Source of the DNA: Crocinitomicaceae bacterium
GTDB lineage: Bacteria; Bacteroidota; Bacteroidia; Flavobacteriales_D; Crocinitomicaceae
Assembly: GCA_024643545.1 (NCBI GenBank)
Contig: JAHEMR010000008.1
Span: 1 to 64,000, forward strand
DNA length: 64,000 nt
Direction of reading: 5' to 3'
The notes beneath the pieces are model-generated. The model did not search any database. It worked only from the letters and a program-made list of their open reading frames with translations, and was not told where the DNA came from. Made by a program: the position numbers and the translations under genes. Below are positions 32,122 through 63,921 of this stretch, in pieces (the first letter of the stretch is position 1; the number at the start of each line of letters is the position of its first letter).

Positions 32122-32151
32122 AAAAGCCAACGAATTTCGTTGGCTTTTTTT
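32122..32151 (+). terminator. Terminator of the ahpC operon
   Basis: AAAAGCCAACG pairs with CGTTGGCTTTT around a five-base loop and runs into seven Ts. Confidence 0.9.
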
Positions 32152-51475: not shown

Positions 51476-51481
51476 AACATA

Positions 51482-51515
51482 AAAAAGCCCCGACGTTACT
51501 GTCGGGGCTTTTTTT
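51482..51515. terminator. Bidirectional terminator between gltA and the rRNA methyltransferase gene
   Basis: AAAAAGCCCCGAC pairs with GTCGGGGCTTTTT around a six-base loop. The symmetric A and T runs let it work for both convergent genes. Confidence 0.92.
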
Positions 51516-59460: not shown

Positions 59461-61362
59461 ATGGAAAATCACATAAAATCACTGATTCTAGGGCACGCAA
59501 CGACTTTGTTTGGACAAGAGATTGATGAACAATTGATTCAATTTCAAGTGACAAGAAAGGATGTGGAAGGTGATTTGACTTTGGTCGTTTTCCCTTTTGT
59601 GAAATTATTGCGTTGTTCGCCAATGGAAGCGGGACAAAAACTTGGTGATTTCATCGAAAGCAATGTAACGGATGTCGATAAATGCATCATTGTCAATGGA
59701 TTTTTAAATATTGTTTTCTCAAAATCCTATTGGTTAAATCAATTGAATGAAGTTTATCATACCAACCAATACGGATTTGCACCTGCGGGTTCGAAACCAA
59801 CGGTTATGGTGGAATATTCTTCGCCAAACACAAATAAACCTTTGCACCTTGGACACCTTCGAAATAATTTCTTGGGATATTCTGTCGCAGAAATATTAAA
59901 AGCGGATGGACATGAAGTCATCAAAACACAGGTGATCAATGACCGTGGAATTCATATTTGTAAAAGCATGTTGGCGTGGGAACGTTTTTCTCCGCTTAAT
60001 GACAAAGGAGAGCGTGAAACACCGGCAAATACTGGTTTGAAAGGTGATAAACTCGTTGGGAAATACTACGTTGAATTTGATAAAAATTTGCAAATCGAAG
60101 CGAAAGCACTGATTTCAAGTTGGGAGCAAGGAGATTTCTCCATGTGCTCGGAAGAAGTTCAAACGGCATTCTTGAATTTCCAAGCCGCCAAAGAAGGAAA
60201 AGACGAAAAAGCAGTTCAGGGAATCGACGATAAAATCAAGGAATTAGCTAAAAATAACACCGGAATTTTGCTGGACGCAAAAGAAATGTTGGTGAAATGG
60301 GAGGCGCGTGATCCACAAGTTTATTTATTGTGGACAACCATGAACAGTTGGGTTTACGACGGATTTGAAAAAACCTACCAGAAAATGGGCGTGGACTTCG
60401 ATAAATTGTATTTCGAATCGGAAACATTCTTATTGGGGAAAGACCAGGTGATGAAAGGATTGAAGGAGGGAGTTTTCTATCAAAAGGAAGATGGCTCTGT
60501 TTGGATTGACTTGACAAATGAAGGATTAGACGAAAAATTAGTGCTGCGTTCAGATGGAACAGCGGTTTACATGACACAGGATATTGGAACGGCAATCGAT
60601 CGTTTTCATGATTACCCACGATTGAATGGAATGGTTTATACGGTTGGGAACGAACAGGATTACCACTTCAAGGTACTGTTCTTGATTCTAAAAAAATTGG
60701 GTTACGCTTGGGCGGAAAATTGTTTCCATTTGTCCTACGGGATGGTGGATTTACCTACGGGAAAAATGAAATCCCGTGAAGGAACCGTTGTTGATGCTGA
60801 TGATTTGATGGATGAAGTCATTGAAAAAGCGGAAGAAATGACCAAAGAACGTGGGCACATTGAATCGTTAAGTGAGGCAGAGCGAAGTACACTTTTTGAA
60901 CAAATTGGCTTAGGTGGACTAAAGTATTATTTATTGAAAGTCGATCCGAAAAAACGCATGATGTTTAATCCGGAAGAGTCGATTGACTTAACTGGAAATA
61001 CAGGTCCTTTCATTCAATATGCACATGCCCGAATCACCACGTTGTTGGATCGAGGTGGATTAATTGATACATCCGAGATTCAACAGGCAAGTTTAATTCA
61101 TGAAGAGAAGGAAATCATTAAATTGTTGACGCAATTTCCAGGAACCATTCATGAAGCGGCAAGTTCCTATTCTCCAGCAATTATCGCGAATTACATCTAT
61201 GATTTGGTGAAACATTACAACCAATTTTATCAAGCGGTGAAAATTCTTTCCGAAGAAAATGCGGCAAATAAAAACCTTCGTTTGGCTATGAGTGAATGTG
61301 TACGACGCACGATTCAACAAAGTTTAATGGTGCTAGGCATTCAGGCTCCAATGAAGATGTAA
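59461..61362 (+). CDS. argS: Arginyl-tRNA synthetase
   Basis: 633 residues. The HIGH motif is in SSPNTNKPLHLGHLRNN; the KMSKS-like site is GKMKSREGT. N-terminal Add1 and C-terminal DALR domains are present (YAHARITTLL; NYIYDLVKHYNQFYQAVKIL). It charges tRNA-Arg. It forms a two-gene unit with the arginase-family gene, both acting on arginine. Confidence 0.96.
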   Translation: MENHIKSLILGHATTLFGQEIDEQLIQFQVTRKDVEGDLTLVVFPFVKLLRCSPMEAGQKLGDFIESNVTDVDKCIIVNGFLNIVFSKSYWLNQLNEVYHTNQYGFAPAGSKPTVMVEYSSPNTNKPLHLGHLRNNFLGYSVAEILKADGHEVIKTQVINDRGIHICKSMLAWERFSPLNDKGERETPANTGLKGDKLVGKYYVEFDKNLQIEAKALISSWEQGDFSMCSEEVQTAFLNFQAAKEGKDEKAVQGIDDKIKELAKNNTGILLDAKEMLVKWEARDPQVYLLWTTMNSWVYDGFEKTYQKMGVDFDKLYFESETFLLGKDQVMKGLKEGVFYQKEDGSVWIDLTNEGLDEKLVLRSDGTAVYMTQDIGTAIDRFHDYPRLNGMVYTVGNEQDYHFKVLFLILKKLGYAWAENCFHLSYGMVDLPTGKMKSREGTVVDADDLMDEVIEKAEEMTKERGHIESLSEAERSTLFEQIGLGGLKYYLLKVDPKKRMMFNPEESIDLTGNTGPFIQYAHARITTLLDRGGLIDTSEIQQASLIHEEKEIIKLLTQFPGTIHEAASSYSPAIIANYIYDLVKHYNQFYQAVKILSEENAANKNLRLAMSECVRRTIQQSLMVLGIQAPMKM

Positions 61363-61428
61363 ATTCATATTTGTAGGTTTCGATTGATTGGAATTCTTGC
61401 TATTTCTTTTTAACTTAAAGTAAAAAAG

Positions 61429-61935
61429 ATGTGGTCAAAATTCAAGAAAAGTCAATTTAGAATTCCAAATATGGATTACCGTCAAGAGGGCGCATACTTC
61501 ATCACAATTTGCACAAAAAAAAGATTTCATTTTTTCGGTGAAATCAAAAATCGACATCTGACCATGTCACCGATTGGTGAAATTGCTAAAGCATGTTGGT
61601 TGGAAATTGAAGCTCATTTTCCAAATGTTCATTTGCGTGAATTTATTGTCATGCCCGACCATATGCACGGTGTCATTGTCATTGATAAATCCGTGATTCG
61701 CAATGAAAATGATTTGTTGTTGAAAGAAAATAGGTTTCAGAATATTGGTAGTCAATCCATTTCATCGATTGTTGGATCATATAAATCTGCCGTATCAAGA
61801 AAATCTAGGTTAATTAACCCTGCCTTCGGTTGGCAATCACGGTTTCATGACCGCGTGGTTCGGTCATCGACGGAATTGGCACGAATTGAAAATTATATTT
61901 CAAAAAACGTGGAAAATTATAATAAAAAACGGTAG
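61429..61935 (+). CDS. REP-associated tyrosine transposase (RAYT, Y1_Tnp superfamily)
   Basis: 168 residues. It has the IS200/RAYT fold signature YFITICTKKRFHFFG, the HUH-type metal motif PDHMHG (His78, His80), and a C-terminal helix with the probable catalytic Tyr156 in RIENYISKNVENY, where YI..NP is usual. The last codons and the TAG stop (61933-61935) lie inside the first arm of the REP-like palindrome that follows. RAYTs are domesticated single-copy relatives of IS200 transposases that act on REP hairpins. Intact; whether it is active is unknown. Confidence 0.9.
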   Translation: MWSKFKKSQFRIPNMDYRQEGAYFITICTKKRFHFFGEIKNRHLTMSPIGEIAKACWLEIEAHFPNVHLREFIVMPDHMHGVIVIDKSVIRNENDLLLKENRFQNIGSQSISSIVGSYKSAVSRKSRLINPAFGWQSRFHDRVVRSSTELARIENYISKNVENYNKKR

Positions 61936-61966
61936 GCGCAGGGCATGCCCTGCGCCTACCGTTTTT
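61925..61966. repeat. Perfect REP-like palindrome, 20-base arms
   Basis: The arm at 61925-61944 (A5, CGG, TAG, GCG, CAG, GGC) and its exact complement at 61947-61966 are separated by only AT. It is GC-rich against an AT-rich background. It overlaps the last four codons of the RAYT gene. Confidence 0.95.
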
Positions 61967-62029
61967 CGCCCTGCGCCTACCGTTTTTCGCCCTGCGCCTA
62001 TCGTTTTTCGCCCTGCGCCTACCGTATTC
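61947..62029. repeat. Tandem 21-base REP-like units (four copies)
   Basis: Four head-to-tail copies of a unit with core GCCCTGCGCCTACCGTTTTT start at 61947 (which lacks its first C), 61967, 61988 and 62009. Copy 3 has one C-to-T change in the core and copy 4 two changes in its T-rich tail. Each can pair with the single inverted arm at 61925-61944. Confidence 0.95.
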
Positions 62030-62037
62030 ATCCATAC

Positions 62038-62074
62038 AATTTGTTGATACAAGGCACGCTCGTATCAACAAATT
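62038..62074. repeat. Inverted repeat with 13-base arms
   Basis: AATTTGTTGATAC (62038-62050) and GTATCAACAAATT (62062-62074) flank an 11-base centre, AAGGCACGCTC. Confidence 0.9.
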
Positions 62075-62077
62075 AAT

Positions 62078-62110
62078 TTTTCATTTACGCATGCCATGCG
62101 TAAATGAAAA
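62078..62110. repeat. Near-perfect palindrome with 16-base arms
   Basis: TTTTCATTTACGCATG (62078-62093) and CATGCGTAAATGAAAA (62095-62110) are exact complements around one C. It lies 24 bases past the topB stop and could also end topB transcription. Confidence 0.9.
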
Positions 62111-62133
62111 TAACAAAAAACATTAATTGGTTT

Positions 62134-63921
62134 TTACCGTCCAAATATCACCTCGTCGGTTAATTCACGTACCATGACAAACAATTCTTCTTTGAAGGTT
62201 TGTGCCTCATAGGTGCCTTTTTCAATCTGACGTAATTTGTGTTCCCATTGACCAGTTAATTCGGGGCTTTTCAGCAATTCATTTTTGATGGTATCAATGA
62301 GGTTCATCCCTGTATCTGTTGCTACGAGGTTTTTCTTTTTCTTTTCAATGTATTTGCGTTTAAACAAGGTTTCGATAATATTCGCACGTGTTGATGGACG
62401 CCCAATACCATTCTCTTTCATGATTTCACGCATTTCTTCGTTCTCCACTAATTTCCCTGCGGATTCCATGGCACGTAAAAGTGTGGCTTCTGTATAATAT
62501 TTTGGTGCACTCGTTTTCCCCTTGTGAATTAAAGGTTGATGAGGGCCGCTTTCACCTTTTTCAAAAATCGGTAGGATTTTATCCTCGCTTTCACCTTCTT
62601 TCTTTTTACTTCCGGATTCTTTGTTTTCTGCCTTCAGATCATCGTAGATCACACGCCAACCTTTATCCAAGATTTGCTTTCCGGTGGCTTTGAATTCTAG
62701 CGCATCGACTTTTCCTAATACCGTTGTGTTCGATATTTTACATTCTGGATAAAAAACAGCAATGAATCGTCTGCAAATCAAATCGTATACGCGTTGTTCG
62801 TCCGGCGTAATACCTGACGGCGCAACTCCTGTTGGTATAATCGCATGGTGATCGGTAATTTTTTTATCGTCAAATATCTGTTTGGACTTTGGAATGGGTT
62901 TTCCTTGCAGCGCATCTGTGAATCGTTTGTAATCGCGCAATCCATTCAGGATGTTCGGGATTTTTGGGTGTAAATCCTCCGATAAATACGTTGTATCTAC
63001 ACGTGGGTAGGTCACTAACTTCTTTTCGTACAAACTTTGAATCTTCGTCAATGTTTCTTCGGCGCTATAGGCATAGTAGCGATTTCCGTCCACTTGAAGG
63101 GATGTTAAATCATACAAGCGTGGATTTCCTTCTTTTCCATCTTTTTGTTCGAAAGAGGTCACTTCGAAAGGTTTGTCTACTAAATATGCTAGACCTTTGT
63201 CAGCTTTATCTTTGGAACGTAAACGATCAATTTGACATTGAAATTCAGTCTCGCGATAGATTGTTTTTAGTTCCCAGTATTCTTCTGCTTTAAACGCATT
63301 GATTTCCTTTTGACGCTGAACAATCATGGCTAATGTCGGCGTTTGAACACGTCCAACAGATAAGGTCATTTTATCTCGACCAAATTTGCGTGTATATAAA
63401 CGTGTACCGTTGATGCCGAGAACCCAATCGCCCACAGCACGTGAATTTCCAGCCGCAAAAAGATTGTCGAATTCTTTGGAGTCTCGCAATTTATTGAATC
63501 CTTCTTTAATGGCTTCTTCTGTTAGGGAAGAAATCCATAAGCGTTTTACTGGAACTTTGCATTTCGCTTTGATGAGCACCCAACGTTGAATCAATTCTCC
63601 TTCTTGTCCAGCATCCCCACAATTAATGACTTCTTCTGCTTGGGTCATCAACGTTTCGATGACTTTGAATTGACGTTTTGCACCTTCGTCCTCGCGTAAT
63701 TTGATGCCGAATTGACCCGGAATAATCGGTAAATCTTCCAATTTCCAATATTTCCAATTTGGATTGTAATCCTCTGGATCCTTCAAGGAACACAAATGTC
63801 CAAAAACCCAAGTCACACAATAGCCGTTTCCCTCCAGGTAGCCATCTCGACGATTTTTAGCTCCTAGAATCTCCGCTAAATCGCGGGCAACACTTGGTTT
63901 TTCGGCAATGCAAAGTTTCAT
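62134..63921 (-). CDS. topB: DNA topoisomerase III (type IA)
   Basis: 595 residues. TOPRIM motifs are MKLCIAEKPSVARDLAEIL and INCGDAGQEGELIQRW; the catalytic Tyr is in LVTYPRVDTTYL; GIGRPSTRANIIETLF is a core motif. It decatenates DNA and works with RecQ-type helicases in many bacteria. It ends directly after the core, so it lacks the extended basic or zinc C-terminus of E. coli TopB (653 residues). Confidence 0.93.
   Translation of the reverse strand: MKLCIAEKPSVARDLAEILGAKNRRDGYLEGNGYCVTWVFGHLCSLKDPEDYNPNWKYWKLEDLPIIPGQFGIKLREDEGAKRQFKVIETLMTQAEEVINCGDAGQEGELIQRWVLIKAKCKVPVKRLWISSLTEEAIKEGFNKLRDSKEFDNLFAAGNSRAVGDWVLGINGTRLYTRKFGRDKMTLSVGRVQTPTLAMIVQRQKEINAFKAEEYWELKTIYRETEFQCQIDRLRSKDKADKGLAYLVDKPFEVTSFEQKDGKEGNPRLYDLTSLQVDGNRYYAYSAEETLTKIQSLYEKKLVTYPRVDTTYLSEDLHPKIPNILNGLRDYKRFTDALQGKPIPKSKQIFDDKKITDHHAIIPTGVAPSGITPDEQRVYDLICRRFIAVFYPECKISNTTVLGKVDALEFKATGKQILDKGWRVIYDDLKAENKESGSKKKEGESEDKILPIFEKGESGPHQPLIHKGKTSAPKYYTEATLLRAMESAGKLVENEEMREIMKENGIGRPSTRANIIETLFKRKYIEKKKKNLVATDTGMNLIDTIKNELLKSPELTGQWEHKLRQIEKGTYEAQTFKEELFVMVRELTDEVIFGR

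Follow-up and report, generated by a model that had tools for sequence, protein, structure and literature searches.

A RAYT-type transposase gene that ends within a REP-like palindrome raises the question of whether the hairpin belongs to the gene as its own substrate or adjoins it for other reasons. We addressed this in a window of 64,000 nucleotides, the whole stretch of DNA analysed here, and the features of the locus are summarized in Table 1.

Table 1. Features of the RAYT locus and its neighbours (window coordinates)
Feature	Position	Strand	Remarks
argS (arginine--tRNA ligase), left neighbour	59461..61362	+	TIGR00456 404.6 bits, cut-off 261.65
66-nt leader of the inserted unit	61363..61428	+	missing in empty-site relatives
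RAYT-type Y1/HUH transposase gene, 168 aa	61429..61935	+	stop codon TAG 61933-61935
Perfect 42-nt palindrome, a putative double-foot REP (GTAG...CTAC)	61925..61966		7-bp extension outside the feet
GTAG tag	61932..61935	+	its TAG is the RAYT stop codon
Right arm, copy 2	61968..61987	+	perfect
Right arm, copy 3	61989..62008	+	one substitution
Right arm, copy 4	62010..62028	+	one substitution
Second hairpin	62038..62074		GTTG and altered core here; G080 counterpart GTAGAAACAGGGCATGCCCTGTTTCTAC (by eye)
Third hairpin	62078..62110		G080 counterpart with GGCATGCC core (by eye)
topB (DNA topoisomerase III), convergent right neighbour	62134..63921	-	TIGR01056 554.5 bits, cut-off 515.75

The inverted repeat was perfect and spacerless (21 + 21 nt, 61925-61945/61946-61966), and the last codons and stop of the RAYT gene were located in its left arm, the TAG being the final three bases of GTAG. 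The earlier note had placed the stop inside one arm of a perfect inverted repeat followed by three further same-direction copies; both claims were confirmed, with an arm one base longer than described. The right-arm array was detected by TRF with a period of 21, 3.8 copies and 96% matches. The 42-nt palindrome was the longest perfect one in the window when loops of at most 8 were allowed, and two further ones with arms of 13-14 nt were seen at 51481-51514 and 32122-32148. The region 61905-62033 folded as RNA with a z-score of -5.6, and 61905-62115, which includes the two further hairpins, folded as DNA with a z-score of -8.7, each better than all 200 shuffles. In the RNA ensemble, the expected pairs of the left arm numbered 12.2 with copy 1, 6.6 with copy 2, 0.13 with copy 3 and 0.007 with copy 4. 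Since the left arm barely pairs with copies 3 and 4, alternative hairpins are plausible for copies 1 and 2 only, and the proposal that the arm can pair with any of the four copies holds for those two and fails for the others.

According to published work, GTAG helps to choose the cleavage site, and in E. coli its last two bases are contacted by C-terminal residues of the enzyme (PMC8266576); by analogy with that system, GTAG here may be regarded as the REP guide tetranucleotide. A GT[AG]G-foot REP was present within 1 kb of the RAYT gene (61932-61966), and it displayed the GTAG...CTAC double foot of subclass 2.4 with 14/14 inner pairs. Of 240 genomes from the family, 16 contained the pattern GTAGNNNCANGGCATGCCNTG, and the reversed-pattern control gave 0 in each. 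The GTAG foot and this distribution supported the assignment of the repeat as a putative REP-type hairpin, and relatives, G061 and G169 among them, carried it in dispersed copies. This locus was the only site in the window genome (G000, 93% complete) of the exact 12-mer, and likewise of the 14-mer when one mismatch was allowed; a search with up to three mismatches returned 55 places, hardly more than the 46 of the reversed control. Core relatives were present elsewhere in this genome: two near-palindromic GTAG...CTAC sequences lie at C32 and a degenerate core at C14, and the core with one mismatch was matched at two more sites. The observation that the earlier note had named as fatal to its view, a unit occurring nowhere else in the genome, therefore holds for the exact and one-mismatch unit but not for its core relatives. 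At C32 (L177, positions 1481 and 2904), identical near-palindromes GTAGCCCAAGGCATGCCATGGGCTAC stand 1.4 kb apart in closely similar context, which suggests a duplication that carried a REP.

In the protein, His78, His80 and Tyr156 were invariant in an alignment of 45 sequences, bearing out the earlier description of an intact HUH/Tyr RAYT gene. REP_Tyr_transpos was the sole NCBIfam match at E up to 1 (E 3e-13), its 49.7 bits falling short of the cut-off of 80; Pfam Y1_Tnp likewise scored under its cut-off (19.4 against 23), and PHROGs gave two weak matches of unknown function. A profile of 11 relatives searched against PDB sequences matched only TnpA_REP (4er8, E 8e-5) at E up to 0.01. The fold of the AlphaFold2 model (pLDDT 86.7, pTM 0.80) matched those of ISDra2, IS608 and E. 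coli TnpA_REP 4er8, the last despite 16% identity in the fold alignment. The protein thus has the predicted Y1 HUH fold, the HUH motif and the one catalytic Tyr expected of a RAYT/TnpA_REP protein. Residues W94, Q95 and R104 of 4er8, tied to GTAG recognition (PMC6006769), corresponded to W135, Q136 and R145 (profile alignment, mapped by eye), and H replaced Q at the GTAG-related position in L009/L010. The RAYT dN/dS of 0.08-0.22 (10 pairs among the window and its orthologues) is a rough value because dS was about 1 or more in 9 of the 10 pairs.

Subclass 2.4 REPtrons, as covered in the available parts of PMC6006769, resemble the window unit in the Y1/HUH core, the WQ motif and the GTAG...CTAC double-foot REPs, and characteristically carry REPs within the transposase coding sequence. 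The window unit differs in that its REP lies at the C-terminus and gives the stop, and its gene held no internal palindrome with arms of at least 12. Its motifs DHMH/WQ/YISKNV share only WQ with the subclass 2.4 set NH[IFV]H/WQ/YIxNNP. E. coli REPs are imperfect and bulged, and the C-terminal extension of E. coli TnpA_REP is longer (PMC8266576); by comparison, the window palindrome is perfect and the window protein ends 12 residues past the catalytic Tyr.

Flanked by convergent genes and composed of an A-tract, a G+C-rich stem and a T-tract, the palindrome might merely serve as a bidirectional intrinsic terminator with no tie to RAYT action. A terminator scan (3 sites versus a shuffle mean of 0.9) indeed reported it as terminator-like on the minus strand and did not report it on the RAYT strand, a result that counts against the REPtron-like reading developed below. 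In five close relatives (G084, G015, G070, G057 and G002), however, the stops of argS and topB are separated by 3-5 bp (three of the five by eye), leaving no room for a native hairpin, whereas 665-771 bp separate the two genes in the four carriers measured; moreover, the GTAG foot and GGCATGCC core are common to REPs inside RAYT genes and elsewhere. Since the five relatives lack the unit of about 0.7 kb, the locus holds an inserted REPtron-like unit rather than a native terminator, and the comparison of empty and filled sites indicates that leader, RAYT gene and hairpins form one unit. We consider the terminator explanation quite improbable. Among the nine Rfam matches at E up to 1 in 61300-62300, none reached the gathering score, and the promoter scan (2 sites versus a shuffle mean of 3.7) was not above the shuffles.

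On balance, we lean toward a one-sided REPtron-like unit, in which the 3' end of a TnpA_REP/RAYT-type gene is joined to the gene's own double-foot REP and GTAG acts as both guide and stop. Against this reading count the profile scores under their cut-offs, the missing upstream REP, the non-dispersal of the exact unit in this genome, the confinement of the covariation to three sequences and the departures in L009/L010. No close inverted repeat or REP was found upstream of the gene (61363-61428), all three hairpins lying downstream, and because of this one-sidedness we filed the gene as RAYT-type and not as a two-sided REPtron; it is in this respect unlike the rayt genes flanked by two REPs described by Nunvar 2010 (PMC2817692). 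A RAYT match was found in 35 of the 150 genomes searched (the window genome counted), and, besides the window genome, five carried a RAYT of at least 74% identity (G067, G080, G068, G061 and G075). All six of these copies (74-100% identity) stood after argS. Transposition of the unit from elsewhere in the genome was rejected, as the window genome had no second RAYT copy, and so was an IS200/IS605 insertion sequence, which would be multi-copy: there was a single match in the own genome.

In a host tree of 13 genomes, carriers and empty genomes were intermixed, with support of 37-83 at several nodes and 100 at three. Between G000 and the empty G084 (L147, L146), topB was 100% identical in every 100-nt window from 100 to 1500, whereas the last 700 nt of argS showed 75-91% identity per 100-nt window, which points to recombination on the RAYT-bearing side of G000. 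Judging from these sequences, that side was most likely acquired by homologous recombination with a breakpoint beside the RAYT unit. G070 is empty, yet on both sides of the junction its flanks match G061 and G068 at mostly 92-97% identity.

The 3' end was assembled in four of the five orthologues (G067, G080, G068 and G061), and in all four, as in the window, the stop was the TAG of GTAG at a hairpin with the GGCATGCC core. GTAG was invariant in the alignment of these five sequences. The perfect stems including the tag measured 21 bp in G000, 22 bp in G067 and 21 bp in G080, and all 21 pairs of the fully paired double foot held in these three. Four pairs were changed on both sides, a covariation carried by these three sequences, and one of the double-sided changes fell on the final codon, at its first base (CGG/AGG, Arg in either case). 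In G068 and G061, the C-terminus differs (NYHS) and a 10-bp perfect stem begins after the stop, and GTAG falls outside the perfect stem in L009/L010. The fifth orthologue, G075 (L011, L048), breaks off: one contig ends within the RAYT gene and another begins in the right half of the palindrome, so that draft genomes may understate how often these loci occur. In another RAYT lineage of the genus (L014, L015 and L016), the stop is the TGA within CGTTGA, which in L014 and L015 looks by eye like the left end of half-arm repeats of a GTTG-tagged hairpin.

Under the one-sided REPtron-like reading, the GTAG-bearing strand would fold into a hairpin when single-stranded, and RAYT would bind the hairpin foot and nick nearby, with the hairpin as cis substrate. 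Repair or template-switching at the hairpin may then copy one arm into the other and may likewise duplicate the right arm in tandem, and therefore the gene end and the noncoding arm would change together. The folded transcript might also mark the mRNA end. The empty site, sites filled with one, two or four right-arm copies, and orthologues whose arms have changed make up a natural series. It allows arm copying and half-REP duplication to be traced, and it bears on how REPs originate and spread from a transposase. One hairpin arm is here constrained as protein code, and from one relative to the next the hairpin changes along with the gene end; the orthologue series and the half-REP arrays deserve to be followed further.

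Paired changes could also arise neutrally, if template-switching by the polymerase homogenises the arms with no selection for the hairpin. Such homogenisation of inverted-repeat arms is described in the available parts of PMC8604942, PMC8794818 and PMC7202029, the first reporting it in coding DNA of yeast. Of the 21 distinct double-foot REPs that share the window core, 13 paired perfectly for at least 5 bp beyond the feet (maximum 19 bp; seven of the others extended 0 bp and one 1 bp), in some cases inside coding sequence (L026, L041), as neutral homogenisation would predict. By itself, however, it leaves unexplained the unchanged GTAG in five sequences and the occurrence of arrays only at RAYT-associated REP-like hairpins (loci from the best 80 of 411 matches). 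As an account of the paired changes, template-switch homogenisation fully rivals selection, and we hold the neutral account to be a tentative but real possibility, somewhat short of an even chance.

The overlap may also be a chance REP insertion at a gene 3' end, as at any gene, with the stop irrelevant to RAYT. We surveyed named RAYTs among the best 80 of 411 confirmed matches, a choice biased toward likeness to the query, of which 79 were usable since L103 ran off its contig; all p-values are from Fisher tests and uncorrected. Plain GTAG stops occurred in 9/79 of these RAYTs (best 80 of 411) versus 15/237 neighbouring ORFs, and an enrichment by this measure was rejected as not significant (p 0.11), in keeping with chance insertion. 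When the GTAG stop also had to open a stem of 6 or more net pairs, the counts were 8/79 (best 80 of 411) versus 6/237 (p 0.009); such stops are thus commoner at RAYTs, although they also exist at other ORFs, and by eye two of the eight are doubtful (L098, where the REP begins a few bases further on, and L141, whose stem is imperfect), as is one of the six (L069). REP-supplied TAG stops at ORFs in general were reported by Di Nocera 2013 (PMC3733652), where, in the parts available, REPs overlapping the 3' ends of tyrosine transposase genes are also marked. A stop overlapped by a REP is accordingly a known kind of event, and its description as unusual in the earlier note was overstated. Against chance insertion, the arrangement is kept in the window and four orthologues despite high synonymous distance, and we regard this explanation as possible but on the doubtful side. 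Compared with PMC3733652, as far as its available parts go, the window adds the orthologue series with paired changes in the coding and noncoding arms, the empty sites and the right-arm-only array.

A larger set of 98 loci combined the 79 named ones (best 80 of 411) with 19 of 30 further loci, several of them near-duplicates; left out were L011 and L017, cut by contig ends, and the partial matches L022, L023, L025, L026, L028-L031 and L033. In this set (including the best 80 of 411), GTAG stops were present in 14/98 loci and an internal perfect palindrome with arms of at least 12 in 36/98, an undercount of internal REPs because some left-out partial matches are genes split by a REP or insert. 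Of these 36 palindromes, 29 start 220-325 nt before the stop and 28 hold GTAG and CTAC; since each ORF was taken to begin at the in-frame stop before it, a few of the palindromes may lie ahead of the true start. The idea that the usual C-terminus was replaced by the REP stood only in part. The tail after the catalytic Tyr is short in the window clade, 10-12 residues compared with a median of 16 for the 84 RAYTs that lack a GTAG stop, though 7 RAYTs outside this clade are equally short; a general association of GTAG stops with altered tail length was rejected (14 versus 84, p 0.31).

Tandem arrays were detected in 27 of 76 usable one-kb RAYT windows versus 16 of 272 others (p 4e-10; best 80 of 411). 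The 98-locus version (including the best 80 of 411) gave 36/95 versus 18/306, and the counts were repeated on named loci only because several of the 19 added loci are near-duplicates. An array lay within 30 bp of a REP-like hairpin in 30/114 cases at RAYTs versus 0/27 elsewhere (p 0.001; best 80 of 411), a measure that partly counts clustered REPs because TRF arrays and REP clusters overlap. RAYT windows in which no REP-like hairpin was detected had arrays in 3/14 cases versus 24/62 with one (p 0.35; best 80 of 411), a non-significant difference that counts against the REPtron-like reading. The arrays of the window and G067 begin no more than 2 bases from the palindrome's dyad centre (TRF phase), which would fit a restart at the hairpin apex. 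In L037, L040, L043 and L072, short tandem arrays adjoin REPs in or near RAYT genes and reach the REP foot (partly by eye).

A still broader proposal, which we rate as rather unlikely, is that RAYT loci rewrite themselves: enzyme action or hairpin replication would copy arms and duplicate half-REPs, rewriting the C-terminal codons, the stop and the HuH-Y linker. Selection would keep in-frame units, a step suggested by array periods divisible by three in 17/19 in-gene versus 1/6 post-stop arrays (one array per locus, best 80 of 411). Such rewriting of coding sequence goes beyond the proposal of Nunvar 2010 (PMC2817692) that BIMEs at rayt genes grow through RAYT activity, which multiplies whole REPs. 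In that paper, REPs are also described as following rayt stops immediately, and rayt 3' ends as lying inside BIMEs; Bertels and Rainey 2011 (PMC3116915) found whole REPINs clustered in tandem next to every RAYT in a single Pseudomonas genome. These systems are alike to ours in the REP adjoining the stop and the local tandem multiplication at rayt, but their units are whole REPs or REPINs, whereas those of the window are half-REPs of one arm. Within the open-licence literature searched, as far as its texts were available, no description of arrays of single REP arms or of in-frame arrays inside RAYT genes was found; half-REP arrays, in-gene in-frame arrays and paired change of coding and noncoding arms appear to have been less clearly described before.

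Finally, an unrelated gene, seen in three genomes at G000:C14:257839 (L176), L042 and L180:3334, seemingly takes C-terminal codons from a REP-core palindrome (by eye), its L042 copy having the tail ...KYRLVGSGHAL....
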